From IMG/VR virus record IMGVR_UViG_3300046536_000256, positions 1-64,000 of that record: a stretch of 64,000 bases of DNA; one strand, 5' to 3'. The notes beneath the pieces are model-generated. The model saw only the letters and a program-made list of their open reading frames with translations. It was not told where the DNA came from and did not search any database. Made by a program: the position numbers and the translations under genes. Shown piece after piece: positions 10,183 through 28,160 of this stretch (position 1 is its first letter; each line of letters starts with the position of its first letter). The DNA comes from a virus.

Positions 10183-10920
10183 TTATTTCTTGGGCAACGA
10201 CAGCGTCTTACGCCCCTTAGTCCGTTCTTCCACACCGCCCAACATCATCAAGAAAGTCCTGGCGGCAGCAATAACTTCCCGGGCTTTAACAACAGACGGG
10301 TGGTCATGAGGGTGCTTCGTGTTGACCAAGAAGCTGGTATTGACCTCAATCGCCTTCTCTGCTTTCACCCGGGCTTCTTCAGCCGTGTCGATCTTTGGCA
10401 TTGGGTTACTACAACCCAGAAGCTCTTTAACAACACGTTCTTCCAACGCGGACACATCAGTTTCGTGGTAGGTGGTCTTCTGACCCCAGTGGACGTTCTC
10501 TTCTTTATAGCTGTCTTTAAAGGACAGAGGGTCGTGTCCCGTTTCCAGGATTGGGCCGCCGATAGGGGGGTTGTCAGGAAAGGTAACTTCCGCCGGCCCA
10601 CCAAACTCCGCTTTACCAAACTGTAGCCGACGAGGCTGGCGAGCGCCGTAGGGCAATTCCAACAACGGACCACCTCTTAGTTTAGGAAGCGGTGGTTCAG
10701 CCTGGATCTGTTTCTGTTTCAGTTCAGCGCACGAAGCGATTACGGCGTCGTGGAATTCCGCGGTAGTCTGGTCCGCACTTGCCCCGGTTAACTTGTCTGC
10801 CCACTCGTCAAACGCGTCATGAGCCTCATCGTGAGAGCACTCGTGAATCCCGCGGTACAGATCAATCCACTGTTCCATCGACTGGTGGAGAGATGCTGCT
10901 TTTCTGCTAACGTTGTTCAT
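10183..10920 (-). CDS. Unknown 245-aa protein with an N-terminal W-module
   Basis: The start is ATG 10920, overlapping the stop of the small upstream gene (ATGA); a longer frame opens with TTG and has no ribosome site. Near the N-terminus, QWIDLYRGIHECSHDEAHDA has the W-x(14)-AH spacing of the repeated W-module found in many genes at 17-28 kb. The middle is Pro/Gly-rich and the C-terminal third is helical and basic. Function unknown. Confidence 0.65.
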   Translation of the reverse strand: MNNVSRKAASLHQSMEQWIDLYRGIHECSHDEAHDAFDEWADKLTGASADQTTAEFHDAVIASCAELKQKQIQAEPPLPKLRGGPLLELPYGARQPRRLQFGKAEFGGPAEVTFPDNPPIGGPILETGHDPLSFKDSYKEENVHWGQKTTYHETDVSALEERVVKELLGCSNPMPKIDTAEEARVKAEKAIEVNTSFLVNTKHPHDHPSVVKAREVIAAARTFLMMLGGVEERTKGRKTLSLPKK

Positions 10921-11042
10921 ACCAAGTTTTCCAATTTGACCAGACCAAAACAAACGTACACAACGACGATTGCTAGCGATACGAGGGTTGCACCACCGAG
11001 GATAATGACCGCCTTACGGAGGTCTGCTTTGTTAGTGCGCAT
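10917..11042 (-). CDS. Small membrane peptide (41 aa)
   Basis: AAGGAG lies 5 nt before ATG 11042. The 41-aa product is a basic N-terminus (MRTNKADLRK) and one long transmembrane helix. The stop overlaps the next start (ATGA), and both neighbours are closely packed, which supports it as a real gene. Confidence 0.6.
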   Translation of the reverse strand: MRTNKADLRKAVIILGGATLVSLAIVVVYVCFGLVKLENLV

Positions 11043-11051
11043 GTTCACTCC

Positions 11052-11513
11052 TTAAAAGCGGAAAGTAGTTTTAACAACCCGACCTTGCTCGATCGAGGTG
11101 TCATACAACGGTTGAGGTTCATTCACCTTAGCCGGCTGATACAGGTAAGTGCAAGATGTGTAGATATCCTTCACATCCAAGTCTGATGGGTTACCAACGG
11201 TAACCGTGGCCATACCTTTACCGTCATCGGAGATAAACAGCATCCGATGACGACTGGCCTGATAATAGGCTCGCACTACACCCTTCAAGTCAGAGGCATC
11301 GGGGTTGACTGCCGTGTACGAGTTACCGCCATGAACCACCCCTGTGCCGGTCAGAATAAACCCATTGGTAATAGGTTGAATCTGAGTAACCCCTGGATCA
11401 CCCTGCCCTGTGGCGTGTTCGTACTCACCGCACAGGATACCGTTTGGAATGTCATCGGCTACAGCGGATAGCGACAACAGCGAAACTACTACGCCTACGA
11501 ACAACGATTTCAT
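11052..11513 (-). CDS. Exported protein with signal peptide
   Basis: The 153-aa product opens with a classic signal peptide (Lys, hydrophobic core VGVVVSLLSL, AVADD cleavage region near residue 20). The mature part has two or three cysteines and is beta-rich, so it is probably periplasmic. It shares length, signal peptide and layout with the gene at 12982-13443, and the two may be distant paralogues. A role in superinfection exclusion or envelope modification is possible but unproven. Confidence 0.65.
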   Translation of the reverse strand: MKSLFVGVVVSLLSLSAVADDIPNGILCGEYEHATGQGDPGVTQIQPITNGFILTGTGVVHGGNSYTAVNPDASDLKGVVRAYYQASRHRMLFISDDGKGMATVTVGNPSDLDVKDIYTSCTYLYQPAKVNEPQPLYDTSIEQGRVVKTTFRF

Positions 11514-12046
11514 GCAGCCTCTCCTTGAGATTTACGGATTAGTTCCTCCAGTTCAATTGCTTCGATTGCGCGCAAGTGATCGGCAATGGCTTTACGGAAT
11601 TCGTTCAGCTTCTGTTTAAAGGAGCTGGACTCACCGGCACGCTTGAAGTCCCAACGGATTTCAAAGTCGTACAGTCCTTCACCGAAGATTTGCAGAATCA
11701 ATGTCTCTTTCGATACAAAGCCATGGAAGAACAACGGCTTGTCTTGGCACAGCACGCGGCTGAAAGGTTCGGTCGGGTCGATGGTCGCCCAACGCTCGAT
11801 CTCTTCCAGCATGCCGATTTGTTCGTACAGATCTTGCTGGTACGCGTTCAGTTGTTTGTTGAAGAAGACCAGGTCATTGGTCGCAGGGATGTCAACACGG
11901 TTGGCCCACTTGCCGTGTTTACCGAAATCGAACTCAACCCCAAAACGCAGGTCGCTGTGTTTGTTACGATGAGCCTCGGACAGAATCACGATGGAACGGT
12001 TCAAGAACGAAGCAGCCAGTTTACGGTCGCTGAAGATTACAGACAT
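11510..12046 (-). CDS. Unknown 178-aa protein, first gene of an early unit
   Basis: GGAG precedes ATG 12046. The TATATTAC element at 12116-12130 lies about 70 nt upstream, so this is probably the first gene of that transcript. The protein is soluble, with aromatic-rich strands in the middle and a long helix at the C-terminus (FKQKLNEFRKAIADHLRAIE). The stop overlaps the next start (ATGA). No family recognised. Confidence 0.65.
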   Translation of the reverse strand: MSVIFSDRKLAASFLNRSIVILSEAHRNKHSDLRFGVEFDFGKHGKWANRVDIPATNDLVFFNKQLNAYQQDLYEQIGMLEEIERWATIDPTEPFSRVLCQDKPLFFHGFVSKETLILQIFGEGLYDFEIRWDFKRAGESSSFKQKLNEFRKAIADHLRAIEAIELEELIRKSQGEAA

Positions 12047-12115
12047 GGTGAAGCTCCTAATAATTCGAGTGCAGTTCTTTACACCCGGTAAAAAGTTTAA
12101 TTGGTGTTACGGCAA

Positions 12116-12130
12116 AGTAATATAGGTTTG
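12116..12130 (-). promoter_or_regulatory. TATATTAC-type early promoter
   Basis: The minus strand reads TCAAACCTATATTAC, identical over 15 nt to the elements at 1736, 23066 and 36990. It precedes the unit beginning at 12046. Confidence 0.7.
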
Positions 12131-12148
12131 AAACTTAATGTAAGTTAA

Positions 12149-12589
12149 TTAAGCTTCGGCCATCCCGATGGTAATTGCAACAAACCCCATGGATTGGTAG
12201 AAAGCTAAGGAACCTCGGTTCCCCATAATGGAATTAACCTTCAGCTTACCAGGGTTGAACTCTTTCAACTTTGTAACCAACTGCCGGGCAATCCCCTTGC
12301 GACGGTGGGTCTCCGCCACAAACAGCTCGGAGATGGATTCAGGGTCATCGTGGGAGATCGAAACAAACCCCACGATCCGGCTGCCTTCTTTCGCTAACAC
12401 GAGCTTGTCGATGTTAGCAAAGGCTTCCATGGTCATGCGCTCACGATCCTCAGCGGAGATCGGGAACTTATCCTTAAAGAAGCTGTAATCTAATTCAGCC
12501 AACTCCCGGTACAGCTCAAACAAACCCAGGAAGAAAATATTGGAGGAATCCACATTGGCCAACTGCGTGTAGCGGATAAGAGCAGACAT
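12149..12589 (-). CDS. GNAT-family N-acetyltransferase
   Basis: The 146-aa product has the GNAT acetyl-CoA site. The strand ISELFVAETH is followed by RRKGIARQLV (a Q/R-x-x-G-x-G/A loop), preceded by the SRIVGFVSIS strand and followed by the GNRGSLAFYQSMGF block typical of motif B. Length is normal for the family. It would transfer an acetyl group to an amine; the target, a small molecule or a host protein, cannot be inferred. Phages use such enzymes to modify host proteins. Confidence 0.85.
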   Translation of the reverse strand: MSALIRYTQLANVDSSNIFFLGLFELYRELAELDYSFFKDKFPISAEDRERMTMEAFANIDKLVLAKEGSRIVGFVSISHDDPESISELFVAETHRRKGIARQLVTKLKEFNPGKLKVNSIMGNRGSLAFYQSMGFVAITIGMAEA

Positions 12590-12660
12590 CGAAAAATCCT
12601 TAATCGATTAATGAACCGGACGACCGGTAACGTATGTGCAGCAAGGTAAAAATAAAGCAT

Positions 12661-12696
12661 ACTCAACCACAGAACCCGAAGGCCCTGTGGTTGAGT
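12661..12696 (-). terminator. Strong UUCG terminator hairpin
   Basis: ACTCAACCACAG (12661-12672) pairs with CTGTGGTTGAGT (12685-12696). On the minus strand the stem continues through wobble pairs to a C(TTCG)G loop and is followed within a few bases by TTTATTTTT. It ends the unit containing the gene at 12708-12968. Confidence 0.85.
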
Positions 12697-12707
12697 TAAC
12701 GTTAAGA

Positions 12708-12968
12708 TTACTGGATAGAGACAATATCGTCTTTAATACCGCGACCAACGAACTGCTGTCCGTTAAAGATAACAAACCCTTCCGGATCAACGTACACGTG
12801 CCCTGTTTGGCAGAGCTCACCATTGACACTTATGGTGCGGGCGCCACGGATGGATACACCCATCGCCACTAGGTAAGCAGAAATCGCTCGCGCAACTTCT
12901 TCGCCGGTCAGGTCAATACTTACCCCGGGACCGAACTTAGTCGTGCCATTGCCGTATCTAACTTCCAT
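12708..12968 (-). CDS. Unknown 86-aa protein
   Basis: Started at ATG 12968 because AGGAGG lies upstream; a longer in-frame reading runs into the previous gene. The product is beta-rich with several turns (VRYGNGTTKFGPG, VYVDPEGFVIFNG) and a short central helix. It is last in its unit, just before the terminator at 12661-12696. Function unknown. Confidence 0.65.
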   Translation of the reverse strand: MEVRYGNGTTKFGPGVSIDLTGEEVARAISAYLVAMGVSIRGARTISVNGELCQTGHVYVDPEGFVIFNGQQFVGRGIKDDIVSIQ

Positions 12969-12981
12969 TACCAAAGACCTC

Positions 12982-13443
12982 CTACTTGCTTGCAGTGCAG
13001 TCAGCCAGAACAATGAGGCCTTTGATAGGACCTACACCGTTTTCGGCTTCTGAATGGTTCGGGTCTTCAAACACGTAGGTGACGAAGTAAAGAGCACCAG
13101 GGGTGTCTTCTCGCTTCAACAGCAGTGTGGTTGGATCACCGGCCATCTCGGAAGCTTCACCGAGTTGGTTGTTGGTCAGGATATGACGATCGGGGAAGGC
13201 CGAACCCTTGTTGATAATGAAACCTTCTTTGGTCTGGATGACCGTGGTCTTGGCTACGACCGGTTTGTTGTCGGTAACAACTTTCTTACCCACGTACTTG
13301 TTGCTGGTGTACTTAGAGCAAACGAATGTGATGTCGCTCGAACTGCGGATGACCGGGTTAGGCTTGTTCTCATAAACCTGTTTGTTAGAGGCATGCGCAG
13401 CGAAAGTCAGTGCCAACAGTGCAAAGATACTAAGTGCTTTCAT
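12982..13443 (-). CDS. Exported protein with signal peptide
   Basis: The 153-aa product starts MKALSIFALLALTFAAHAS, a textbook signal peptide with an AHA-S cleavage site near residue 18. AGGAG precedes the ATG. The mature protein has two cysteines that could form a periplasmic disulphide, and is beta-rich. Same length and layout as the gene at 11052-11513. A probable periplasmic protein of unknown role. Confidence 0.65.
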   Translation of the reverse strand: MKALSIFALLALTFAAHASNKQVYENKPNPVIRSSSDITFVCSKYTSNKYVGKKVVTDNKPVVAKTTVIQTKEGFIINKGSAFPDRHILTNNQLGEASEMAGDPTTLLLKREDTPGALYFVTYVFEDPNHSEAENGVGPIKGLIVLADCTASK

Positions 13444-13481
13444 CTGTGTTTCTCCTAGTTACAAGTTGTATTGCTTAGTGC

Positions 13482-13799
13482 TTATTGTTTTGGGAAGTGA
13501 TGCCAGTTGCCGTCGCTATCTTGCATGCCGATGCCATCGAACAAGATGTTCGTGAAGTCAACACTAGTACCCAGCCCGTGGTGACGGACCATGTCTTGAG
13601 CGTAGCCGCGCTTGATCTCCTCCCACCGCTCAGGGGTACCGGTGAAGCCTTGTTGCCTAGCCTGCTCGATCGTGCATTCCTTCACCACAACAAAGGGTTG
13701 ACGCATTGGCATACCCGGGACGAGTGAGTCACACATCTTCGCCGTTACGGGAGCGCTTGGCATTGCCTTAACCAGGGTGTCACAGAGTTGCTTATTCAT
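13482..13799 (-). CDS. Unknown 105-aa protein
   Basis: The frame is open further upstream, but that part overlaps the real gene 13792-14331. The start is therefore set at ATG 13799 (MNKQLCDTL), with AAGG upstream and an 8-nt overlap. The product has Pro/Met-rich loops and a Trp/His-rich C-terminus (GNWHHFPKQ). No family recognised. Confidence 0.6.
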   Translation of the reverse strand: MNKQLCDTLVKAMPSAPVTAKMCDSLVPGMPMRQPFVVVKECTIEQARQQGFTGTPERWEEIKRGYAQDMVRHHGLGTSVDFTNILFDGIGMQDSDGNWHHFPKQ

Positions 13800-17142: not shown

Positions 17143-17769
17143 TTACGCGTTTAGGACACCTTCGCCTTCACCGAACCCCAACAACCCCACACCCATGATG
17201 TGCGCTTGTTCAAACGTGACATCATGGCGGAAGCGCTGGTCGATTACCCACTCCAACGACGGCACATCCGGAACCACCGATTTGATTTCCGGTACTTCCT
17301 GTTCGAAGTCGAAGTCCTTGACGGTCAAACGGTTTATTGCGTACAGGATGAAGGTGAACAACGACACCAAGTGTTTCTGGCTGATACCTTCACGATCTGC
17401 GTAGGTTAACCCCCACAGCCGAACCCCCTCTGCGCTACCAGTGGTGGCAAACAACGAAGGATCGCCCTTGGCGATCAGCGTACGGTAATCCACCTCGCGA
17501 ATGGTCGTAAACAGATCAACCGCTTTCAGGTATTCCTGAATGTCACGTTTCAGCCCGGTCATTTGCGCGATGTACCCCGGCGTAGCACCGGGAACGTTCA
17601 TGGCCAAGTCGAACAGGGTCAACATGGTCCGCAGAGAGTCGTTGGCCTCGACAACCGCTTGGTCGTAGGTCAAACCCTTGGTGACTTGCAGTTCGGCCAC
17701 GTACGGCGACGACAGGGTCTTAGCGACTACATCGAAGATCCCGGTGATTGCTGGTGTATTGTTAACCAT
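17143..17769 (-). CDS. W-module protein (208 aa)
   Basis: The start is set at ATG 17769, overlapping the previous gene by 8 nt; the longer frame is that gene's shadow. The C-terminal part carries a copy of the repeated module (LEWVIDQRFRHDVTFEQAHI, W at about residue 174), with Ala 15 residues after the Trp and Gly four later. The rest is helical. Gene order and coupling with 17762-18286 suggest joint expression. Function unknown. Confidence 0.65.
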   Translation of the reverse strand: MVNNTPAITGIFDVVAKTLSSPYVAELQVTKGLTYDQAVVEANDSLRTMLTLFDLAMNVPGATPGYIAQMTGLKRDIQEYLKAVDLFTTIREVDYRTLIAKGDPSLFATTGSAEGVRLWGLTYADREGISQKHLVSLFTFILYAINRLTVKDFDFEQEVPEIKSVVPDVPSLEWVIDQRFRHDVTFEQAHIMGVGLLGFGEGEGVLNA

Positions 17770-18286
17770 TGATAAACTTCCCAAAGACACGTTGTTTTCT
17801 GATTCGGCGAAACAAGCCCGAAAACCCAAAGAAAGGGAACAAGGCAATCTTCCCTTTGAAATGTGTTACGTTGTTCTCGATCATCCAAGCCTCGATCAGG
17901 TTGTGCTGAATATCCAGCTCATCCTCGGGGTTCCAACGATCGGCTTGACGCAACCAGCGCGGGTTAGCTTTAATCCGCACTGGGCTGACCACATCACCCA
18001 CCACCATCATGCCGTGATCACCTTGGTCAATAAACTCCTGGATGATCTGCGGATACACCTCGGCCTGACGGAAACATTCTTGCACGTAACCAACAGGATC
18101 TTTGGTCATGGCAATCGAGGTAATCAACCCTACAACCGCCTCAGCAGAATGGTTCTTTGCTTCCCGAGCAGCCAACTTCTTTAGCTTCTTAGGATTCGTG
18201 GTGAAGTTCTCTTTCAGGAACTTAAGGAAAGCAGCTTCCTGCTGGAGGGGAGTCAGCTGCTCTTTTACATCGACTACTTCATCCAT
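17762..18286 (-). CDS. Unknown 174-aa protein
   Basis: Helical N-terminal half rich in Lys, Glu and Ala, then a central strand block (GMMVVGDVVSPVRI) and a Phe/Arg-rich C-terminus. A Trp-rich stretch (NPRWLRQADRW) resembles the start of the local W-module but lacks the Ala/Gly spacing. The ribosome site is weak. Function unknown. Confidence 0.6.
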   Translation of the reverse strand: MDEVVDVKEQLTPLQQEAAFLKFLKENFTTNPKKLKKLAAREAKNHSAEAVVGLITSIAMTKDPVGYVQECFRQAEVYPQIIQEFIDQGDHGMMVVGDVVSPVRIKANPRWLRQADRWNPEDELDIQHNLIEAWMIENNVTHFKGKIALFPFFGFSGLFRRIRKQRVFGKFING

Positions 18287-18292
18287 GCTGCT

Positions 18293-18898
18293 TTACACCC
18301 GGTGAGAGATCTGACGCTCGACGATGATTTCGTAAGGGAAGTACATCAATCCCTCGCGCTCTTGTGGAGCAGGACCGACATTCACCCACATCGAAATCCC
18401 CTTCTTGCTTTCAGGGGTTGGGAACAATCGCCTGACCGTAGCGTAGCCCGCCTGATTGATAGCACGGTCCTTGCTGGTGTCGGGGTTTACTTTCATGAAC
18501 CATTCGACCCAGTCCATGTTTACGAACCGACGATCATCAACAGCGCTGAACGGGGTGGGCTCGATGCCAAACTCAGGATGACTGCTTGGAAGCAGATGCA
18601 TCATGCTCTCTTCATGGTCCTTGAAGACTTGAAGACAAGCCTTGACACGGCTGGCTGGAAACTCATGCATCCCCAACCCAGATTCAAATGCCCGCAGACG
18701 CTCATGCAGCCAACGAAGACGTTCGGGGGTTGCACGCAAGATCTCAACGAGCCGGGCTGGGAGATCGGGATACTTATCGACTTCGTGATCGATAAAACCC
18801 TGGATAGTGTTGCCGAGACCGCAATCGTGAATATCACCCAATGGCAGGTCTTTACGCATTTGTTCTTTTTCAGCTTCGTAGTCAGTGCGAACGCTCAT
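18293..18898 (-). CDS. W-module protein (201 aa)
   Basis: AGGA precedes ATG 18898. The product has a helical N-terminal 110 residues. FVNMDWVEWFMKVNP then begins a W-module copy, with one extra residue before the conserved Ala. The C-terminal part is beta-type and ends in FPYEIIVERQ. It belongs to the family of neighbours at 17-25 kb that share this module. Confidence 0.65.
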   Translation of the reverse strand: MSVRTDYEAEKEQMRKDLPLGDIHDCGLGNTIQGFIDHEVDKYPDLPARLVEILRATPERLRWLHERLRAFESGLGMHEFPASRVKACLQVFKDHEESMMHLLPSSHPEFGIEPTPFSAVDDRRFVNMDWVEWFMKVNPDTSKDRAINQAGYATVRRLFPTPESKKGISMWVNVGPAPQEREGLMYFPYEIIVERQISHRV

Positions 18899-18929
18899 GG
18901 TTGTTATCCTTACAGGGTTATAATTGAGG

Positions 18930-19661
18930 TTAGTACTTCTGAACGGTGACCTTTGTGCCTTCGAGGTGTGCTTCGAGATAGTGAACCTTCTCGAAATACT
19001 TGTACCACACCACCCACTTCATGGACAGTACGGTGCGGTGGATGCCGGCCTTCTTGAACTCAGGTTCAGTGATCCACTTCTCCGGTGCTTCGATAACTCT
19101 TGGACGTGGCAATTCACGGTCCAGTTGTTGCATGATCTTGAGCGCGGCTTCATGGGCTTGGAGAATCCCGATACCCTGTTTATTCGAGTACCACAGCAGC
19201 CACTCGGTACTTGGCTGAAGACCACCATTATTACCGTAGATGCTTGGCTCGTCGCTAGCCGGCTCGTAGCGCGCGGTAGCGGCGATTTCTTTGAGTTCGG
19301 CGATCGACTGCTGCATCCGCTCGATTTGTTGCTCAACACAAATAGCCGCGTGTTCAGCTACCCGGGTAACGTCCATGTTGCGTTGAGTGGCGTAGTACTC
19401 GACCCACTCCCGATTGATATCACTTTTGGCACCCTGAAACAGGGAAGGAATGGGACCGAAGCCGGATTCTTCTGCCTTAGCCGCCAGCCAAGCAAACCGT
19501 TCCATGATGACTTGGATGGTAACTTCGTCACTTGCACCTTTGTTGACCCGTTCCAGCAACTTGGCGAGCTGGTCGATAACAATTGTGTCGGCCCACTCTG
19601 GAAGCTGGAGGTCTTTACGAGACTTGCGGGCTACTGATTCTGGCGAAATGATTTGGACCAT
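18930..19661 (-). CDS. Protein with three W-modules (243 aa)
   Basis: AAGGAA lies 6 nt before ATG 19661. Three module copies occur: REWVEYYATQRNMDV (one-residue insertion), TEWLLWYSNKQGIGILQAHE and MKWVVWYKYFEKVHYLEAHL. The last two keep exact W, W or Y, and Ala-His spacing. This gene shows best that the module is a repeat unit. The start overlaps the end of the previous gene by 47 nt, longer than usual here. Function unknown. Confidence 0.7.
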   Translation of the reverse strand: MVQIISPESVARKSRKDLQLPEWADTIVIDQLAKLLERVNKGASDEVTIQVIMERFAWLAAKAEESGFGPIPSLFQGAKSDINREWVEYYATQRNMDVTRVAEHAAICVEQQIERMQQSIAELKEIAATARYEPASDEPSIYGNNGGLQPSTEWLLWYSNKQGIGILQAHEAALKIMQQLDRELPRPRVIEAPEKWITEPEFKKAGIHRTVLSMKWVVWYKYFEKVHYLEAHLEGTKVTVQKY

Positions 19662-20307
19662 GGTCTAATTCCTTTGAAAATTCACGTTCTTGACGAAGCT
19701 GGTTAATACGTCTAACCGCTTCAAATACTTGCGGCGGGTACTTGGTCTCATCGAACCAACCCCCAATGTACACTTCCAGACAACGGGTGCTGCGCAAGGC
19801 CTCTTTAAAGACCAAATGAATCCCGTTATCTACTTTGAAACTGATTAGGAATTTCCCCATTCCAATCAGCGTCTTGATCGTATCCCCGAGTACAACATTT
19901 GTTAGGCTACAGATGGGAGTACGATACTTCAGGCGGTCAGCAATCACCGCATGAAATTCCCGGGTCACCCCCAACGAGTGGAGTTTGTTCCAAGGCAATT
20001 CTTCTTTTACAACACGCTTAACACTGAGGAAGACCCCTTCGTATTCCGGGGTCCGACTGACAACGCTAAACTCTGCTACCCCTTGGCGCTTACGAGGACC
20101 CTTCTCCCAAGTGAACCCAGAGAGGGCTAACACAGGGTTGTCCTTGTGACCGCTCTTCAGGACACGGTCAGCGTAAGCTTTAAAGAACGGAGAGATCCCG
20201 CACCCTTCACCGATTGATTCGGCTATGTAGGGGCGGAGGCTATCCAAAGTTTTATGCAAATCCTTCACCTGACGAACATTGCTTATTGGCGCAATTTTTC
20301 CGTTCAT
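19615..20307 (-). CDS. Unknown 230-aa protein
   Basis: The product is a mixed alpha/beta protein with basic stretches (KGPRKRQG, LRQERE). Its C-terminus overlaps the next gene by 47 nt. Codons and spacing are like its neighbours. No domain recognised. Confidence 0.6.
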   Translation of the reverse strand: MNGKIAPISNVRQVKDLHKTLDSLRPYIAESIGEGCGISPFFKAYADRVLKSGHKDNPVLALSGFTWEKGPRKRQGVAEFSVVSRTPEYEGVFLSVKRVVKEELPWNKLHSLGVTREFHAVIADRLKYRTPICSLTNVVLGDTIKTLIGMGKFLISFKVDNGIHLVFKEALRSTRCLEVYIGGWFDETKYPPQVFEAVRRINQLRQEREFSKELDHGPNHFARISSPQVS

Positions 20308-20352
20308 TACTGCTCTCTTATCCAGTCCATAGCGATTCCGGGTACAGTGGAA

Positions 20353-20709
20353 TCATCCCATAGACTCACGATCCCTTTCCATGTCCCGTCTGGTTTGCTC
20401 GTCCAGAGTAATGGTGTGCTGCTTGCACTTACCGCACTTGGACTCCTTAACCAGCTTGAACCCATAAGCAGAAATCAATACCGCTCGACCTTCTGCCATG
20501 ACTTGTGTAGTGATACACTGTCCTTTGCCTGGCAGTTTGACTTTGCGGAAGTTGTCGAATACCGACACACCAAAGGTAGCCAGCGCGTAGTCGTCGAAGA
20601 GCTCTTCTAAAGCTGCTTGGACATTCTCCTTGGGCAACCCCTCAAAGAACACGTCCAAGCGCTTACCGACCTCTTCAGCCACCTCATAATCGAATCGAGG
20701 TTCATTCAT
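20353..20709 (-). CDS. Unknown 118-aa protein with CxxC pair
   Basis: The acidic N-terminal half is helical. The C-terminal half has CGKCKQH, a possible half zinc site or redox pair. The start overlaps the previous gene by 8 nt. Function unknown. Confidence 0.6.
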   Translation of the reverse strand: MNEPRFDYEVAEEVGKRLDVFFEGLPKENVQAALEELFDDYALATFGVSVFDNFRKVKLPGKGQCITTQVMAEGRAVLISAYGFKLVKESKCGKCKQHTITLDEQTRRDMERDRESMG

Positions 20710-21427
20710 ACGGGAACATTCCGATGGAGCTTTGAAGGATAGAGACCAGACGTCTCAGATCGTTCTCACTGAAAATCCCCTCATCAGTGAAGGTGGCGAT
20801 TGCCTCGCCGTCAAGGATCCGGAGCAAGACCTCCCAGATATTGATGACGTCGGTCTTGTCATTGATACGGTAAATCGCCATTGTTCCGGTCAGATACCCC
20901 ATGACGACACGGAAGTCAGAAAACGTTTTACGTTCCTTATCCGTTACCATGCGGATTCTGATATCACCATCCAGTTGCAGCCACTCGTTAAAATTGGACA
21001 GGTAAACTTCCTGAGCTTCCAGAGTTTTACCCACTTTGGCCTTGATCACGTTGCCCTTCATCATCGCCTCGTAAGGCGTGATGTTGTCCCGCATACACTT
21101 ATCCATTACCCATTCCAAGGTAATGATCCGAGTGCCTTCGATAAACATCACCGGCGGCTCAGCAGGGAGGAACTTGGGGTCAGCCAAGTTCAGGGTCGTT
21201 TTAATTACACCAAGTGCCGCGGACCAACCACCGGTGACCCGACTCCTCAGATCAAAGATAGGCATCGCGTGATCGGTATTACCAGGGAACTTTTCTTTCA
21301 ACATCGCACGGTGTTGAGGGACGACAACCGTTTTCTTGTACCACTCGCCCCAAGCTTCTGGGAAGGCGTGCGGGTGGTCCATAAAAGGACTCGGCTCGTC
21401 TTTTCCAGGAACGTATTGATTTTCCAT
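20702..21427 (-). CDS. W-module protein with ENDL C-terminal domain (241 aa)
   Basis: Two W-module copies are visible: EAWGEWYKKTVVVPQHRAML near the N-terminus and TLEWVMDKCMRDNITPYEAM in the middle. The C-terminal third (from about residue 150) aligns with the small gene directly upstream (21427-21750). Both have a TD-x(2)-RK-F-DF block and end in FSENDLRRL or FNENDLIRL. The start shares a base with that gene's stop (TAATG). Function unknown. Confidence 0.7.
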   Translation of the reverse strand: MENQYVPGKDEPSPFMDHPHAFPEAWGEWYKKTVVVPQHRAMLKEKFPGNTDHAMPIFDLRSRVTGGWSAALGVIKTTLNLADPKFLPAEPPVMFIEGTRIITLEWVMDKCMRDNITPYEAMMKGNVIKAKVGKTLEAQEVYLSNFNEWLQLDGDIRIRMVTDKERKTFSDFRVVMGYLTGTMAIYRINDKTDVINIWEVLLRILDGEAIATFTDEGIFSENDLRRLVSILQSSIGMFPYE

Positions 21428-21750
21428 TATGAGATCATCGCCTTGAACACGTTAGCCAAACGAATGAGGTCGTTCTCGTTGAACTTCTCTTCGTAGAGAT
21501 AGTCGCAACGCAATTCCCCTTCCACTTCGTAGATCCGTGCGCGTGGCTGCTGGATCACGCCGATCGTTTCGTTAACCACGATCACCTTAGCCAGCGGTGC
21601 AATGGACACCAGGAAATCGGTGAACTGTTTACGCTGCGAATCGGTGTGCATGGAGACGTTAACATTCCAACCGCCGTGCTCAACCCAGACTTTCATTTCC
21701 GGGAACCACATACCAGCACCCAGAAGAGGTTTTTCCATTACTTGTGTCAT
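21427..21750 (-). CDS. Unknown 107-aa protein, stand-alone ENDL domain
   Basis: The frame is open further upstream, but AAGGA before ATG 21750 and the neighbour's end at 21761 set the start. Residues from about 25 on match the C-terminal domain of the next gene (20702-21427). This indicates duplication of that domain or gain of the W-modules by fusion. Translationally coupled through TAATG. Confidence 0.65.
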   Translation of the reverse strand: MTQVMEKPLLGAGMWFPEMKVWVEHGGWNVNVSMHTDSQRKQFTDFLVSIAPLAKVIVVNETIGVIQQPRARIYEVEGELRCDYLYEEKFNENDLIRLANVFKAMIS

Positions 21751-21760
21751 TGTTTGTTCC

Positions 21761-22603
21761 TTATTTGGATTCTTCAAACCAAGGATCGGTTGGATCCATT
21801 GGGTCGTGGTATTTGATTTTAACCAAGAGGGGATCACTTGGGTCCCATGGAAGGATCTCCACGTTCTTCCGCATCTTGCCGTGAGCAAACTCATTGTCAA
21901 TCATGGACTTAGCGCCCACTTCGAAAGCATGACTGTGGTTAACACCATACGTCTCAACACACCAGTCCAACCACTCCTTGTTCAGACGACGACGATTGAC
22001 GGTGTCCAGTAGACACGGTTCGTTCTTTGACGGACGCAGGTCCGCGATCATAACCGGCTGGGAAACGTTATCTATCACCAGTCGTGGAGTAAGCTGGGAC
22101 TTTACCAAGCCTTCGAGTTCCTCAAAGACCCTATCCATGTCGCTTCCAGGAACCCACCCACGGAGATAGGCTTCCAAAGGAGCAGGGTCCATAGGTGTAC
22201 GCCAGGTAACCTCGCTAGGATCTGGGATGTGAGAAGACATGATCCGATTACCTCGGAGATCGTGACCGGGTTCTGGTCCTATTGCGGTTGGCTTAGTTCT
22301 ACCGTAAAAGGCATCACGAACCGAATCGACAACTTTCTCGACAACAGCTGCGTCTTGAAGAGGGCGGTTACCTTGCCAAGGGTTCTGGGTAACCTCCCCA
22401 CACGACGCATTGGGGTCGGTGTACATCCCCAGCTGAGCCGCTCTCCGACACTCCGAGTGACCCACGTCCTTTTCTTTAGGACCTTGTCCCATGAAACCTG
22501 GGTTATGCGGCTCATCCAGAAAGTCGATTACTTCTTTGGATACTTTAACTGGCTTGTCCAAACCCAAGAACAAACGAACCCCTTTGTACAGTTGTGTGAA
22601 CAT
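21761..22603 (-). CDS. W-module protein (280 aa)
   Basis: AGGAG lies upstream of ATG 22603. The first half is Pro/Gly-rich and may be partly disordered. The module copy (NKEWLDWCVETYGVNHSHAF), preceded by NRRRL, is near residue 215, with Ala and Gly at the standard spacing. The C-terminus is Asp/Pro-rich (DPMDPTDPWFEE). Function unknown. Confidence 0.65.
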   Translation of the reverse strand: MFTQLYKGVRLFLGLDKPVKVSKEVIDFLDEPHNPGFMGQGPKEKDVGHSECRRAAQLGMYTDPNASCGEVTQNPWQGNRPLQDAAVVEKVVDSVRDAFYGRTKPTAIGPEPGHDLRGNRIMSSHIPDPSEVTWRTPMDPAPLEAYLRGWVPGSDMDRVFEELEGLVKSQLTPRLVIDNVSQPVMIADLRPSKNEPCLLDTVNRRRLNKEWLDWCVETYGVNHSHAFEVGAKSMIDNEFAHGKMRKNVEILPWDPSDPLLVKIKYHDPMDPTDPWFEESK

Positions 22604-22605
22604 GA

Positions 22606-23025
22606 TTACTCCTTAAGCTTATAAGAGAACACCGCGGGCTTAACTGACCAGTCTGACGGGAACTTGAGCGGGATGGCTTCGATAGAAGGCCACGATTCGA
22701 TCGGTTTGATGTGTCTTGGATCATTAATCAAATCGTTCAAAACCTTGGTGAATTCCTCAGCCCGCGTGCTCGACTTGATCATGGGTAATTCGATGATCCC
22801 GTCTTTACAGATCACCGGGTTAACTTCGCTAGCCAACTTGAGGATCTCTTCCACCGTGCCAAGTGGGGGCAAGGAAAAGAACTCCTTGCCCCACAATGCC
22901 ATCCAACGACTGATCGGGGTGTTCTTGTGTTCTTCAAACGTGAACTCGATCGCTGGTCGACGGTTAATGCGATAGATGCCTCCATCAGGGGCCACAGCGG
23001 TTCTAGGGGTATTTTCTTTTGCCAC
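22606..23025 (-). CDS. Unknown 139-aa protein with GTG start
   Basis: Starts at GTG 23025, with GGAGG 8 nt upstream. It is the first gene after the TATATTAC element at 23066-23080. The product has an RINRRP stretch and a Trp-rich segment (ISRWMALWGKEFF) loosely like the local W-module but without its spacing. Function unknown. Confidence 0.65.
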   Translation of the reverse strand: MAKENTPRTAVAPDGGIYRINRRPAIEFTFEEHKNTPISRWMALWGKEFFSLPPLGTVEEILKLASEVNPVICKDGIIELPMIKSSTRAEEFTKVLNDLINDPRHIKPIESWPSIEAIPLKFPSDWSVKPAVFSYKLKE

Positions 23026-23065: not shown

Positions 23066-23080
23066 GTAATATAGGTTTGA
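23066..23080 (-). promoter_or_regulatory. TATATTAC-type early promoter
   Basis: The minus strand reads TCAAACCTATATTAC, about 41 nt before the GTG start of the 22606-23025 gene. It would drive the run of W-module genes to its left. Confidence 0.7.
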
Positions 23081-23149: not shown

Positions 23150-24343
23150 TTATGCCGCTTCTTTCAGCTCAGGGCACTCGTCACGCAATGCGTACGCGAT
23201 ATTGCCAACGGCGGAGTTCGTGATGTTGAGGAAGGTGAGAATACCGGATGTGGCGTTCAGGCTGCAACTGAGGTCGAACAGATCGTCGCTCAGCTCATCG
23301 TGCTTCTTCTCATCCTGGTTCTTGGTGATCTCGTCCTTCAGTTTGGCCATCTTGCTTTTCACGTCAGTATGAATCTCCTGGATCTTCTTCTTGCTACCCT
23401 CAGTCTGATCAAGGGCACGCTTACTGTCAGCGATCCAAGATTTGGCCGCACTGACACTCTTGAAGTAGTCAGGGTGTGTACCGTTAACAAACCCCTCGAG
23501 AGCTTCGATAACGGCACCGGTCCTGACAGACATCTCTGTGTAGATCTTTCGGGCGCGTTCGCTGAACGACTTATCTTCGGCGCTTTCAACGAAGGACTCT
23601 TTGCGGGTCTTGATGGTCGCGAGGGCCTTGTCGAGACTTTCGCAGTTTCTTTTGATGGCGGTGGCATTCAACACGGAGAGCTCGAACACCTCCTTAACCA
23701 ACTGAATAACCTGCGGGACCGCCTTTGCGACTTCGGCGGGAGTTGGTTTACCGGCTTCACCAGCGGGCTTGGAATCAGCCGACTTAGATTTGTCGTCAGA
23801 CCCGCTCTTAGCCGGCTCAGATTTGGACGAGCTTTTGCCGATCTTGAGATCTTCCTTGACTTCTTCGACCTTCTTTTCCAGCTTGGTCTTTTCCGGGCCA
23901 GCTGGAAGTTTTTCAACCTTGGCTTCAACAGCCTTCACGGCGGACACAACGTTAGCCGGAGTAACCTTTGGAGCCTCCATCGCTTTAACCGCCACTTCAG
24001 CCTCAGCAACGGTTGCCTTGATCTTTGCGTCCTTCTCAGCGGCCGGTTTACCGAAGAGGAATTCCCAGAGCGATTTGAACATCTTCTGGATGTATTCCCA
24101 CATCTTCGAGATGCCTTTACCGATGGTGCCGAACAACCCGCCTTCTTCGTTACCGGTAATTTCGTCGAGACCAGATTCCAGACCGGCGGCGTACATGACA
24201 CCGTGTACGTAGCGTTGCGCGGCAGTAAGGTTCATGCCCTCACTGCCGGTGACTGTGTCAATAAACCCGGTCATCACTTTTTCAACGTGACTTGGATCTG
24301 GAATTTCGTTGTAATCGTCAGCAAAATCAACAATATGGTGCAT
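23150..24343 (-). CDS. Coiled-coil, Lys/Ala-rich 397-aa protein
   Basis: After about 65 globular residues comes an amphipathic, aromatic-rich stretch (GKGISKMWEYIQKMFKSLWE, about 76-95). A long Ala/Lys/Glu helical region follows, with a low-complexity Ser/Lys/Asp linker near residues 165-200. A second helical domain has Cys residues near its end. Composition and layout resemble internal head or ejected virion proteins, which are often cleaved, but no known sequence is matched. A stand-alone unit: hairpins flank it on both sides. Confidence 0.6.
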   Translation of the reverse strand: MHHIVDFADDYNEIPDPSHVEKVMTGFIDTVTGSEGMNLTAAQRYVHGVMYAAGLESGLDEITGNEEGGLFGTIGKGISKMWEYIQKMFKSLWEFLFGKPAAEKDAKIKATVAEAEVAVKAMEAPKVTPANVVSAVKAVEAKVEKLPAGPEKTKLEKKVEEVKEDLKIGKSSSKSEPAKSGSDDKSKSADSKPAGEAGKPTPAEVAKAVPQVIQLVKEVFELSVLNATAIKRNCESLDKALATIKTRKESFVESAEDKSFSERARKIYTEMSVRTGAVIEALEGFVNGTHPDYFKSVSAAKSWIADSKRALDQTEGSKKKIQEIHTDVKSKMAKLKDEITKNQDEKKHDELSDDLFDLSCSLNATSGILTFLNITNSAVGNIAYALRDECPELKEAA

Positions 24344-24413
24344 ACATTTCCCCTGGTGTACCGAATAAGTTAATGACCTATAGCATTCGAGGAAACAAAA
24401 AAATAAAGTAAGG

Positions 24414-24445
24414 TAACCAACGGAGGCCGCAACCCCCGTTGGTTA
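24414..24445 (-). terminator. Intrinsic terminator after the 24450-24971 gene
   Basis: TAACCAACGG (24414-24423) pairs with CCGTTGGTTA (24436-24445). On the minus strand it is followed by a strong T-run, TTTATTTTTTTG. Confidence 0.85.
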
Positions 24446-24449
24446 TCTC

Positions 24450-24971
24450 TTATCGATGTATCGGTATTACTGTAGCGGTGCACTCTTTACCCCCATCCCT
24501 GCTTCCAATGCGGAAGCCGTTGTAACCGCCACCGGCCCGAGGGCCAAATAGCTCGCTGTACCCCATCGTGTAAGCCACCTGGAAACTTACCCCGTACCGA
24601 TGACGATAGTCCATTACAAAAGCCATGGACACTAAAGCTTCGTCAGCTAACGATACCGGTGGTAGTGGATCATCCAAATCGATGTAGCGTCGTGGTTCTT
24701 CTGAAAGGTGGTTATACAGCGCGGTACCGATGTTGACGGCCATGCTGTGACTCAGGCCGTATTTCATCATCGACCAACGCACCCAACGTGGATGCACTGC
24801 TCCCTCACCCCGTGTAAATAAACTAGGTTCTGTAGGTTCCGGTGTGTACTCCGACCGACCTGGTACCTTAAGCACCGGTGTAACGGTTTGGAGAATCCCG
24901 AAGAGCGGCATTGCCAAAGAACGCATTGCCCCTACGACCCCAAGACTTGCTGAAGTAGCTTTATTAATCAC
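24450..24971 (-). CDS. Protein with two W-modules (173 aa), GTG start
   Basis: The start is placed at GTG 24971 because GAGG lies 8 nt upstream; the frame extends to 25049 without a better site. The N-terminus is hydrophobic (LAMPLFGILQTVTPVL). Two module copies follow: PRWVRWSMMKYGLSHSMAVN and, near residue 130, MAFVMDYRHRYGVSFQVAYT with Phe in place of the first Trp. Both keep Y-G-V/L-S and the Ala/Gly spacing and give the clearest view of the consensus. Function unknown. Confidence 0.65.
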   Translation of the reverse strand: MINKATSASLGVVGAMRSLAMPLFGILQTVTPVLKVPGRSEYTPEPTEPSLFTRGEGAVHPRWVRWSMMKYGLSHSMAVNIGTALYNHLSEEPRRYIDLDDPLPPVSLADEALVSMAFVMDYRHRYGVSFQVAYTMGYSELFGPRAGGGYNGFRIGSRDGGKECTATVIPIHR

Positions 24972-25017
24972 AAGCTTTACCTCACGTACTTTATCGTTGA
25001 ATTGGTTTTCAGTTTTC

Positions 25018-25176
25018 CTATTGTTGCAGCAGCAGCTTGAACATATCACGGCGTTTTTCCTTAAGACGCTCGATGTCGATATGGTCTCACTTTACTTTCA
25101 ACGGAGATCTGTCCAACGATTGAATCAAGGCCTCTTTTGTCTGATTGAATCGTCCAAGGATATGTCCGTACACCAT
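25018..25176 (-). pseudogene. Possible 52-codon small gene interrupted by UGA
   Basis: From ATG 25176 the frame reads MVYGHILGRFNQTKEALIQS and on to a TGA at 25089-25087. The same frame continues with a typical charged helix (DHIDIERLKEKRRDMFKLLL) to TAG 25018. The part after the TGA looks coding, so this may be a small gene broken by a nonsense change (Trp TGG to TGA would restore it), or a readthrough case. No clear ribosome site precedes the ATG. It lies in an otherwise gene-poor gap. Confidence 0.35.
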
Positions 25177-25251
25177 TCACTGTTTACGCAGTGATTCCCA
25201 TGGGTAACTTCTGTAAGCTTACCTTCTCGTTATAATCCAGATAAACACTGG

Positions 25252-25422
25252 TTACCACAGCTCCAGTAGAACCGTGACCATTCTCTTAAACCAAGAGTAA
25301 TTCCGAGGTAATCGGTTGCGAGGACCAACTATGTATTGTTGGTAGTCGGCACTCCCCGAGGAATGGCCACGGTAGTAGCTGGAAGGCAGAGGCGTAATCG
25401 TGCGATTCGGTCTGTTCGACAT
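25252..25422 (-). CDS. Weak small gene candidate (56 aa)
   Basis: Runs from ATG 25422 to TAA 25252. The product is Arg/Tyr/Ser-rich, starts MSNRPNRTITPLPSSYYRG and ends in a short hydrophobic stretch. There is no good ribosome site (only GGA about 11 nt upstream). It is listed because the gap is otherwise empty and frames here are usually used. Confidence 0.35.
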   Translation of the reverse strand: MSNRPNRTITPLPSSYYRGHSSGSADYQQYIVGPRNRLPRNYSWFKRMVTVLLELW

Positions 25423-25477
25423 AATTAATAAGTCCGTTTAGTTAAATAATAAATTGGCCAAGCAAAAGAAACAAAGG

Positions 25478-25505
25478 CTAGGCCTGCCCAATTGGGCAGG
25501 CCTAG
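25478..25505 (-). terminator. Perfect 28-bp palindrome, terminator
   Basis: A fully self-complementary sequence centred on CCCAATTGGG lies just past the stop of the 25514-26836 gene. The minus strand then runs into TTTGTTTCTTTTG. Confidence 0.8.
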
Positions 25506-25513
25506 TTTATTGC

Positions 25514-26836
25514 TTAGCCCATGAGAGCGGCGATGGAAGCCGGCAGCGCAACCTGAGCGGAACCACCAGCTGGTGCTGGCAGACCGATAGGTGCGCTGTC
25601 AGTACCTTCCGACAGGTTGCTGGAGATTGCACCCTGAGCCAGACGACCCAGACCCGAACCCAGCGCACCAGCTGCCAGACCCAGAGTACCAGCAGCGGTG
25701 TACTTGCCGAACTGGTTGTCGATCACGCCTTCCAGCATTTCACCAGCGAAGAACGAACCGACGATACCGGCAACTGCACCGATACCACTGCCGACGCTCA
25801 GGCTGCCACGGTGACCAGTTTCCAGAGCAGCGCCCAGCAGAGCACTACCTGCGGCAACCCAACCAGCACGCACGCCGTCGTCACGTTCACCACGCAGGGA
25901 GAAACGCGAACGAGCTTCAGCCGACTGAATAGCCGGTTTGAAGGTCTTGGCGAATTCCTGGAACTTGGCGTTTGCTTCAGGCACCTGGCTGACGAAGGTG
26001 TGGAACTGTGCATCGTTGCTCAGACCTTCCGGTGCTGCTTTGGCGGTTGCCGAAGCTTGTGGTTGGAAGGCCAGGTTCTCGGACAGGAACACGTTGTACA
26101 GCTCGTCGCGTTGCGCTTCGGTTGCGTAACCAATAACCACCAGGTCAGCAACAAAGATTTCCAGAGCGGTTTTCGGTTTGGCTTCGTTGTTCATAACAGT
26201 CGACTCGTTGGTGGCGGTGGATGCGGCAGGCGCAGCGGTTTCAACAGCAGGAGTGTTAACAGCGGTCAAAGCGATCAGAGTAGTTTTCATGGTTGGTTGC
26301 TCCAGGGAAGTGTTAGAAGTGTTAGAAGTTTGTTCGGCGGTAGCGGCAGGTGCCACTTGTTCTTGTACAGCCACACCGGATACCGGCGCGGGTTCAAGCG
26401 TTGCATTTTGTTGCTGGCCATGATTCAGGATCCATTCTTCGGAACCTGGTTCACCGACCAGTTGATGCGTTTCAGAGTGCACAACGCTTTCTGGCGCTGG
26501 GGTCTGAATGTTGATTACCGATTCACCGTGCAGCTCGTCCACTGGGATCAGTGTACCTTCCAGGGCCGCAGTTGCAGGGGATGTTGCAGCAGCCAGCAGA
26601 GTTGGATCTGCTTTACGCACTTGGTTCATGCTGAAGCCAGTACCGAGTGCTTCGTTAACGCGTTTCAGGAAAGTCTGACGATGCTGCTTTTCCAGGAACG
26701 CTTCGTCGAACATCTTGGCCTTCAGTACAGCCTGGATGGTTTGTGCATCGCCGCCATTGCCTTTGATTGTTTTCAAAGCTTCGATGGTAGCTTCCAGAGC
26801 CAGTTCATAAACAGGGCGTTCAATTTGCGAATTCAT
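25514..26836 (-). CDS. 440-aa protein with glycine-zipper-like C-terminal domain
   Basis: The start is ATG 26836, with AGGAG 8 nt upstream; a longer frame has no site and covers the promoter. The N-terminal 75 residues are helical. A long Ala/Thr/Pro/Gln-rich, probably disordered middle follows. Residues about 330-410 are Gly/Ala-rich and hydrophobic with G-x(3)-G spacing (GSGIGAVAGIVGSFFAG, TLGLAAGALGSGLG). Such glycine zippers insert into membranes in outer-membrane and toxin proteins. A role at the membrane or in the virion is possible. Own promoter element and terminator. Confidence 0.65.
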   Translation of the reverse strand: MNSQIERPVYELALEATIEALKTIKGNGGDAQTIQAVLKAKMFDEAFLEKQHRQTFLKRVNEALGTGFSMNQVRKADPTLLAAATSPATAALEGTLIPVDELHGESVINIQTPAPESVVHSETHQLVGEPGSEEWILNHGQQQNATLEPAPVSGVAVQEQVAPAATAEQTSNTSNTSLEQPTMKTTLIALTAVNTPAVETAAPAASTATNESTVMNNEAKPKTALEIFVADLVVIGYATEAQRDELYNVFLSENLAFQPQASATAKAAPEGLSNDAQFHTFVSQVPEANAKFQEFAKTFKPAIQSAEARSRFSLRGERDDGVRAGWVAAGSALLGAALETGHRGSLSVGSGIGAVAGIVGSFFAGEMLEGVIDNQFGKYTAAGTLGLAAGALGSGLGRLAQGAISSNLSEGTDSAPIGLPAPAGGSAQVALPASIAALMG

Positions 26837-26909
26837 TGGGTGTTGCTCCTTGTCGGGAAAGTGTAATGTTCTGCGTAACACAAAGATATTTGTATTACTT
26901 ACTGTGATA

Positions 26910-26924
26910 GTTATATAGACCTGA
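26910..26924 (-). promoter_or_regulatory. Variant TATATAAC early-promoter-like element
   Basis: The minus strand reads TCAGGTCTATATAAC, one base off the TATATTAC core and with a conserved TCA start, about 74 nt before the start of the 25514-26836 gene. Confidence 0.5.
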
Positions 26925-26960
26925 AAAAGAATATAAGTTAAAAATAAACGCAATCAAACA

Positions 26961-26998
26961 TATACCCCTTATCCCGCATTAGCGGGATAAGGGGTATA
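26961..26998 (-). terminator. 17-bp perfect terminator hairpin
   Basis: TATACCCCTTATCCCGC (26961-26977) is perfectly complementary to GCGGGATAAGGGGTATA (26982-26998), with a four-base loop, directly after the stop of the Acb1-like gene. Confidence 0.9.
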
Positions 26999-27000
26999 AA

Positions 27001-27432
27001 TTACTTACCGAGGCTGTACGCTTCGTTGGTAAAGGTTAGTTTACGGCCCGCCCAATCGGTTAATACGGTTTGGCACGCCAGGATGTCATACTGGTTAAAG
27101 TCGTAGGTCAAACTCATGTGCGGAATGTAACCCGCATACGGAGTCTCGTAACCAGCGGCTTTAAGGCGGAGGTGTTCTTCTTGCAAGTCCTTACTGGTCA
27201 AACGAAAGATCAAACCGTCACCCAGAATCTCCAACGCCACGACATGCGCTTCGAAGATTCGTGTAGGGTCCAGAACAGCTAGGGGTTTATCGATATCCCG
27301 CTCATCGTAGATCAGCGTTGAGTGGAAGTCATGCTTGGGTGCAGGAGCGATGCCAGCAGCACTCAGAAGAGTAATCAGCTCTGCTTCGAAGTCACTGGTC
27401 AGTTCAACCGAGATGTAGCTGTAATCCATCAT
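27001..27432 (-). CDS. acb1-like: 2H phosphoesterase, Acb1-like (putative anti-CBASS nuclease)
   Basis: The 143-aa product starts at ATG 27432 with GAGG 6 nt upstream. Two H-x-T/S motifs, H37-S-T39 (HSTLIY) and H105-M-S107 (PHMSLTY), mark the 2H phosphoesterase fold and are 68 residues apart. T4 Acb1 is 152 aa with two H-x-T motifs at about the same spacing. It degrades the cyclic nucleotides that activate CBASS defence. The alternative is a generic 2H enzyme such as an RNA 2',3'-cyclic phosphodiesterase. Size, spacing and the Y-x-P-H-x-S/T-L-x-Y context favour Acb1. It is the last gene of its unit. Confidence 0.65.
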   Translation of the reverse strand: MMDYSYISVELTSDFEAELITLLSAAGIAPAPKHDFHSTLIYDERDIDKPLAVLDPTRIFEAHVVALEILGDGLIFRLTSKDLQEEHLRLKAAGYETPYAGYIPHMSLTYDFNQYDILACQTVLTDWAGRKLTFTNEAYSLGK

Positions 27433-27440
27433 CAGGCGCC

Positions 27441-28160
27441 TCAGGAAGGGAAGGGGGTGTCCAATACAATCCCTTGGTGGTTGTCGACGATGTCCAAACA
27501 ACGGAACACAGCAAAGACCCCCTTGTGTTCAGTCGACAGCCGGTTCGCTTCTTCCATCGCCAGCGCCTTGGTCTGATGACGATAAGGAACGTTGTGGATG
27601 TTGACCGCGCCGGTTTGGGTTACCTTACCGATAATGAAACGACCCAGCGTCTTGGCGTACTTCGGTTTGTAACTTGCAGTGCCAGCCAGCGTGAGTTTGT
27701 TGTGGTACATCTGGAAACCTTCCCAGCGTGCATTCACCCACTGCATGACGTACTTGTCGCGGGAATCACGGTCCAGTACCTTGGGATCGAACGAGCCTTC
27801 TTCAAACAGCAGGTTCTCGAACTCTTCCCGTAAGGTGCAGTTCTTGTTATCCGGACGAGCAGCCACCGGAGGCATGCCATGACCCTGTTGCAATTCGCGA
27901 GTAGTGCGGCGCGTTAGGGGAATGGCCACGACGTAAGGATCCGTGTCGTTAGCCGGGGTGTAGACCATTACTGGTGCATCTTCTTTGACATTTGGACCAA
28001 TGCGTTCGTGCAGGACTTCTACCGCTTCTAACAGAGCGGCTTCAACGTTAGGTTGCCCCAACTCTACGGTGCGCTTGTTTACCCATGCTTGATCAATTGC
28101 GCGCAGCGAGAGTGGTTCGGTGGACAAGAAATCCACCGGAGTCAGTTCTTGAACAGTCAT
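27441..28160 (-). CDS. Unknown 239-aa protein with W-module-like segment
   Basis: AAGGA precedes ATG 28160. AIDQAWVNKRTVELGQPNVE (about residues 21-40), followed by AALLEA, has the W-V, G and Ala positions of the repeated W-module. The centre is beta-type (VMVYTPANDTDPYVVAIPL) and the C-terminal half alpha/beta. It lies directly upstream of the Acb1-like gene in the same unit. Function unknown. Confidence 0.6.
   Translation of the reverse strand: MTVQELTPVDFLSTEPLSLRAIDQAWVNKRTVELGQPNVEAALLEAVEVLHERIGPNVKEDAPVMVYTPANDTDPYVVAIPLTRRTTRELQQGHGMPPVAARPDNKNCTLREEFENLLFEEGSFDPKVLDRDSRDKYVMQWVNARWEGFQMYHNKLTLAGTASYKPKYAKTLGRFIIGKVTQTGAVNIHNVPYRHQTKALAMEEANRLSTEHKGVFAVFRCLDIVDNHQGIVLDTPFPS

Follow-up and report, generated by a model that had tools for sequence, protein, structure and literature searches.

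A repeated motif in neighboring genes of an EL-related virus is the helical-hairpin half of an apparently undescribed ~45-residue phage domain

Does a short motif that recurs across neighboring viral genes mark a genuine protein family, and if so, what might that family do? The question is raised by a 64,000-nucleotide stretch, here called the window, that forms part of a 233,283-base virus (positions 1 to 64,000 of IMG/VR record IMGVR_UViG_3300046536_000256). A sequence-only reading of this DNA had picked out copies of a roughly 25-residue W-x14-A-x3-G unit in a series of genes between 10183 and 28160. The peptides that it quoted are located where it had placed them, all on the minus strand, as are all the window features described below; genes are named here by their first window coordinate. 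This recurring pattern makes up the helical-hairpin half of a ~45-residue phage domain, apparently undescribed. Through a profile of this module, two genes of Pseudomonas phage EL can be connected with at least six window genes, probably seven, and with the counterparts of these genes in nine relatives.

The consensus of the module is [E/D]-P-x-(L/I/V)-(F/Y/L), 5-10 residues, then hydrophobic-(S/N)-x-x-W-V-x-W-Y-x4-G-V-S-x3-A-x3-G, in which P, L/I, S/N, W, V, W/Y, G, A, and G form the columns conserved across copies. Because the alignment shows the E/D-P-x-(L/I/V)-(F/Y/L) segment ahead of the W in almost every copy, at a distance of about 12-16 residues, the unit is ~45 residues long; the 25 residues proposed earlier correspond to its hairpin part, and the flanks, described as completely different, in fact share this segment. 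The P is kept in 24 of the 24 rows that reach its position, the rows having been cut by hand to include it. The net charge of the modules spans -7 to +5 and is not conserved. Tandem pairs of ~100 residues, module A then module B, are found in 24450, 18930, 17143, 20702, and several relatives, with a W-to-W spacing of about 55-62 residues in most; A-type modules bear the signature DEPSxF and often N-P-x-W, and B-type modules G-x-V-S-M-x-W-V. An A module stands alone in 21761 and 18293, and an extra copy lies ahead of the A-B pair in 18930 and 17143. There are also stand-alone proteins that consist of two modules and little else, EL gp133 (89 residues) and the product of L079:4031-4357.

Taken alone, the bare pattern W/F-x14-A-x3-G/A is weak evidence, with 11 occurrences across the window genes where 3.9 would be expected and 5 of 1000 shuffles reaching 11. 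When the hydrophobic and aromatic positions were added, seven occurrences were found against 0.05 expected, with a maximum of one across 1000 shuffles. The W-x14-A-x3-G motif by itself is nevertheless marginal, because a 30-residue profile built from the window copies alone recovered at rank 1 just 6 of 13 copies in a leave-one-out test; the proposal that a profile would separate the copies from other proteins holds once sequences of relatives are used. Two such profiles were tested. A distant-only profile contained twelve copies from distant phages and zero window sequences; it recovered the module in five window genes (E 6.7e-8 to 0.0043), and the top open reading frame (ORF) that it found outside the list of the sequence-only reading had an E value of 0.37. 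In a leave-family-out test, each gene's own family was removed from a combined profile and 500 shuffles were run per gene; seven genes exceeded the best other window ORF (3.1-4.0 bits), and for none of them did any shuffle equal the gene's own top match.

As the distant copies were picked by likeness to the motif, both of these tests are partly subject to selection, of which BLASTP and profile-profile comparisons are free. Among the window proteins, BLASTP aligned 24450 with 17143 (E 1e-5), 18930 with both 24450 and 17143 (E 2e-4), and 21761 with 24450 (E 4e-4), matches between module genes ranging overall from E 1e-5 to 0.01. Using hhalign, the 24450/18930 group was aligned both with the 20702 group (104 columns, E 3e-10) and with 17143 (92 columns, E 3.3e-8); the hhalign E values were 3.5e-5 for 21761 and 1.5e-4 for 18293. 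The family profile match spans both the E/D-P segment and the helical hairpin. The central claim, that a repeated module extends across neighboring genes, is thus borne out by distant-only and leave-family-out profiles and by both motif-independent comparisons, and the family is a real and expanded one.

The individual copies differ in how clearly they can be recognized; below, E denotes the distant-only profile and bits the leave-family-out test, unless stated otherwise. Gene 24450-24971 has module A at 24705-24833 (TEPSLFTRGEGAVHPRWVRWSMMKYGLSHSMAVNIGTALYNHL; E 6.7e-8, 26.7 bits) and module B at 24546-24668 (PLPPVSLADEALVSMAFVMDYRHRYGVSFQVAYTMGYSELF; 14.3 bits), a pair aligned by BLASTP with 18930 and 17143. 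We also note that before this gene, at ~25050-25450, there is an apparent frame-broken gene remnant whose intact counterpart lies at 9492-9950 of the closest relative, L002 (IMGVR_UViG_3300028608_000006). Three modules are present in 18930-19661: the first at 19326-19454 (beginning PIPSLFQGAKSDINREWVEYYATQRNMDV; E 1.9e-7, 7.0 bits; model helices 84-93 and 98-129), module A at 19122-19253 (DEPSIYGNNGGLQPSTEWLLWYSNKQGIGILQAHEAALKIMQQL; E 1.2e-6, 30.4 bits; model helices 152-162 and 166-182), and module B at 18933-19070 (TEPEFKKAGIHRTVLSMKWVVWYKYFEKVHYLEAHLEGTKVTVQKY; E 0.004, 14.1 bits; model helices 214-224 and 228-242). The single A-type module of 21761-22603 lies at 21890-22024 (NEPCLLDTVNRRRLNKEWLDWCVETYGVNHSHAFEVGAKSMIDNE; E 0.0043, 23.3 bits), and that of 18293-18898, which has one extra residue between W and A, at 18422-18562 (EPTPFSAVDDRRFVNMDWVEWFMKVNPDTSKDRAINQAGYATVRRLF; E 3.1e-4, 9.7 bits). 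The latter gene also contains another repeated element, resembling RLRWLHERLRAFESGLGM, that is matched by a profile built on L006 and L007 (E 8e-7) and is found in L006, L007, and L081 too.

For 20702-21427 (E 0.0033), two copies had been listed. Module B, at 21035-21160 (EPPVMFIEGTRIITLEWVMDKCMRDNITPYEAMMKGNVIKAK; 8.4 bits), is recovered, but the first copy, at 21281-21400 (DEPSPF...WGEWYKK...), is a degenerate module A that was placed by profile-profile alignment, is recognizable by position alone, and has no profile match of its own in the leave-family-out test (-3.4 bits). A second domain is common to residues 149-236 of this protein and residues 72-157 of the adjoining 21427-21900 (BLASTP 5e-8). 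In 17143-17769, module B lies at 17167-17295 (VPEIKSVVPDVPSLEWVIDQRFRHDVTFEQAHIMGVGLLGFGE; 14.9 bits); a further copy had been overlooked, module A at 17326-17463 (beginning DPSLFATTGSAEGVRLWGLTYADREGISQKHL), which is identified by the BLASTP and hhalign alignments of the pair and gives no match to a single-module profile. At 17620-17742 the same protein has an N-terminal module with Y in place of W (GIFDVVAKTLSSPYVAELQVTKGLTYDQAVVEANDSLRTML), where the orthologue L002:17531-18232 has SLRWLAEYEVKVGCTPAEAIAAANEGL; its profile match (E 2e-7) was obtained only with that copy in the profile.

Besides these six genes, a seventh, 10183-10920, is a probable carrier of a lone module at 10789-10878 (MEQWIDLYRGIHECSHDEAHDAFDEWADKL), to which the searches point weakly. 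Its distant-only match (E 0.12) is followed by noise, its 8.3 bits compare with 3.4 for the best other ORF, with none of 500 shuffles as high, and its orthologue retains the pattern at 40% identity; this copy is without the E/D-P segment and may be a chance resemblance. The remaining listed gene, 27441-28160, gave no match in the leave-family-out profile search, and here chance is the likely reading. Residues 125-227 of the 27441 product form a C-terminal domain that is akin to phrog_17352 and has relatives in Psa21, 201phi2-1, and EL-like phages; phrog_17352 was rejected as a relative of the module, as it matches this C-terminal part alone, apart from the claimed motif.

An AlphaFold model of 18930, computed from 12 sequences, shows each of the three modules as a helix-turn-helix, with ten-residue mean predicted local distance difference test (pLDDT) values of 55-83 for the first copy and 70-92 for modules A and B. 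The earlier proposal of a helix-turn-helix unit is therefore supported for the three copies of 18930, in the one usable model. When this model was compared by Foldseek with the BFVD models, which were made independently of the alignments used here, EL gp133 ranked first among the viral folds (probability 0.96, E 0.05). A fold search of the PDB with the whole three-module model gave a best E value of 0.79, and one module alone might match a known fold; helix-turn-helix proteins, including POU domains, appeared at E 2.4 and above and are not significant.

Consistent with the earlier statement that no described family has this pattern, scans of the module proteins against Pfam, PHROGs, and NCBIfam gave no significant relative, and no helix-turn-helix family model in these three collections matched the module. 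The best PDB sequence match, BamC (E 0.53), was rejected, an Rfam scan gave none, and the sole match among the PADLOC anti-phage-defence families was a weak one of 20702 to HEC-01B (E 0.0016), which does not place the module in such a family. The module has helix-turn-helix secondary structure in common with classical domains such as POU and XRE; unlike them, it is a two-helix unit behind an E/D-P segment, without a conserved basic face, a sequence-model match, or a significant fold match. A further comparison is with Bacillus phage G, in which a zinc ribbon has undergone a lineage-specific expansion to ~35 copies (PMC7824862). In both cases one small domain has been multiplied inside one phage genome, although the module described here lacks zinc ligands and occurs as a tandem A-B pair joined to sequences that vary. 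Small-domain expansion in jumbo phages is thus a known kind of event, and this domain and its tandem form appear to be new.

Over 10-30 kb, the window resembles the phage collection at the DNA level solely in a gene for RNase H, shared with the Erwinia phages RisingSun and Joad; its protein-level kinship is with phage EL and IMG/VR jumbo phages. L002 has an almost identical gene order over 14.5-31 kb, and neighbor gene 17762 (39-44% identity) led to seven remoter relatives, L005-L011. Whole-genome searches for the module were positive for the window genome, for nine of ten IMG/VR relatives (the one negative being G002, a 164-kb record), and for EL, whose gp84 (YP_418117, E 1.9e-6) and gp133 (YP_418166, E 1e-5) were both found before their inclusion in the profile. 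The window genome carries 12-13 modules in the window and a further A-B pair near 171.4 kb that is orthologous to L035/L073 and L075, whereas EL has three modules in two genes: gp133, and gp84 with an N-terminal region followed by one module. Both are hypothetical proteins annotated without any domain, and we found no mention of either in the literature when looked for by accession; phiRU, MIZ-Pa99, and other EL-type phages have orthologues of both.

No module was found at E ≤ 0.5 in phiKZ, 201phi2-1, PhiPA3, Psa21, SPN3US, Noxifer, Phabio, Miami, Goslar, SNUABM_20, or RisingSun, and its absence from phiKZ, 201phi2-1, PhiPA3, SPN3US, and Goslar argues against a general domain of nucleus-forming jumbo phages. 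The suggestion that relatives be sought in the proteomes of phiKZ-, EL-, and OBP-like phages was therefore fruitful for EL alone. A match in OBP (3738-3803, E 0.005) was judged spurious: it is partial, covers profile positions 1-21, and lies close to the record's left end in a short, 90-residue plus-strand ORF, the annotated OBP_001 and OBP_002 (to 3117) just before it being on the minus strand. Matches in G000 (220,967-221,029) and L036 lie in a low-complexity frame and were also judged spurious. EL gp84 had no match in bacterial genomes, and 18930 and 24450 had none in phage records by tblastn. As far as searched, the module thus appears to be restricted to EL and closer relatives.

Five of the module genes (21761, 20702, 18930, 18293, and 17143) belong to an apparent operon of ten genes with close or overlapping ends (17143-23025). 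At its head, before the run of genes from 22606 to 17143, there is an exact match to an EL-type promoter, CAAACCTATATTAC, at 23066-23079. Five such sites occur in the window against 0.22 expected, the others being at 1736-1749, 5491-5504 (one mismatch), 12117-12130, and 36990-37003, and with up to one mismatch the genome has 12, each of them on the minus strand, and none for the reversed-pattern control. The pattern, also written CAAACCTAYATTA, agrees with the promoters annotated in the EL record and with the published EL consensus, WTTTYAAACCTACATTATY. The OBP promoter, which is related to that of EL, was judged early because it is placed before early operons (PMC7058600). The location of the apparent operon behind a promoter of this type makes early expression plausible, and to this extent the description of the module proteins as early phage proteins is upheld. 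Gene 24450 is set apart from the apparent operon by gene 23150 and by a terminator-like hairpin with a 14-pair stem that follows 24450 (24414-24445). We note that the first ~100 residues of 23150-24343 are common to EL gp165 and seven places in RisingSun, a separate expanded family.

What might such a module do? Its conserved positions are those expected to cap the helices, to supply aromatics to the core, and, at A and G, to provide small residues for packing, and it is fused to otherwise unrelated sequence. We propose that the E/D-P-x-hydrophobic segment leads into a helix-turn-helix whose first helix would pack its W, V, and Y against the small A and G residues of the second. A few structural residues would then fix the core and leave the other positions free to vary, which could give each paralogue a different partner, in the host or in the phage, and duplication and fusion would have carried the module through the early operon. 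A fixed core with a changing surface leads us to favor a lineage-specific, fast-diverging, non-enzymatic protein-binding module on early host-takeover proteins, with targets that we infer to differ between paralogues; our confidence in it is somewhat short of even, but it is preferred over mutual assembly, nucleic-acid binding, and an address tag. Structural conservation combined with variability elsewhere fits a scaffold for varied targets better than the single shared partner that would be expected of the common adaptor suggested earlier. The bolder version, in which the hairpin pair is a new fold and an evolvable scaffold, an interchangeable recognition unit duplicated within the early operon with each paralogue capturing a different host factor, seems to us doubtful. 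If a variable-target scaffold is indeed what the module provides, the copying of a single small part would be how this phage lineage builds new proteins for host takeover. Names are lacking for most of the early genes in jumbo phages, and the binding question can be reduced to one 89-residue protein of a cultivated phage, EL.

Divergence from L002 is high among the module genes, five of six being 33-68% identical and the sixth, 18293, 92%; of 13 other genes, eleven are 76-99% identical and the remaining two, at 71% and 39%, belong to another paralogous family. The module genes therefore diverge faster than most of their neighbors. Several observations weigh against a protein-binding scaffold with changing targets. 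dN/dS (nonsynonymous relative to synonymous substitution) is 0.13-0.26 where computable, so that no positive selection is shown, and the module is no better conserved than the remainder of the protein except in 24450 and, slightly, 20702. The 18930 model is of one protein, from 12 sequences, with a mean pLDDT of 68, and the 20702 model is poor (mean pLDDT 45.6), with helices at 104-113 and 118-129 and the degenerate module A as one low-confidence helix. Small helical hairpins are, moreover, also used for nucleic-acid binding and oligomerization.

Of the other explanations, self-association fares best, though we consider it unlikely: the paralogues would bind one another, module A to B or B to B, and form a single hetero-oligomeric early complex. 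The grouping of five module genes in one apparent operon would suit such an assembly, as would the several copies within the single chain of 18930 and the two modules of EL gp133; however, non-core positions differ among the paralogues, and EL has just two such genes, ~46 kb apart. Less probable again is a DNA- or RNA-binding helix-turn-helix of early regulators. To the predicted secondary structure and the weak, non-significant POU fold matches can be added the basic character of EL gp133 and of relatives in L006, L008, and L011 (+4 to +5 per module), but there is no conserved basic residue, the net charge falls as low as -7, the helix-turn-helix models of Pfam, NCBIfam, and PHROGs do not match, and two helices are predicted where classical domains have three. 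An address tag that routes different proteins to one site, be it the phage nucleus, an early vesicle, or the virion, is improbable: the same module does occur on proteins of otherwise unrelated sequence, and EL is listed among chimallin-encoding phages (PMC10299810), yet phiKZ, 201phi2-1, and PhiPA3, which according to the literature build the same compartment, lack the module, and both its non-core positions and its place within the protein vary. The possibility that the copies are not one family, but chance or convergent amphipathic helices chosen by eye, could appeal to the roughly threefold enrichment of the bare pattern and to the partial recovery by the window-only profile, but it is highly improbable given the recovery by the other two profiles, the motif-independent alignments, and the absence of the module from eleven other jumbo phage genomes, and is already refuted for 24450, 18930, 17143, 20702, and 21761.

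Other genes in the window include an anti-CBASS nuclease gene, Acb1, which lies near the module genes at 27001-27501 (Pfam PF23474, E 2e-13), and a phage GroEL-type chaperonin at 3731-5434 (phrog_5725, E 9e-128). Finally, 29415-30353 and 30350-31288 form a pair of paralogues (BLASTP 1.7e-32), of which more copies are found in L002 at 2484-5388.

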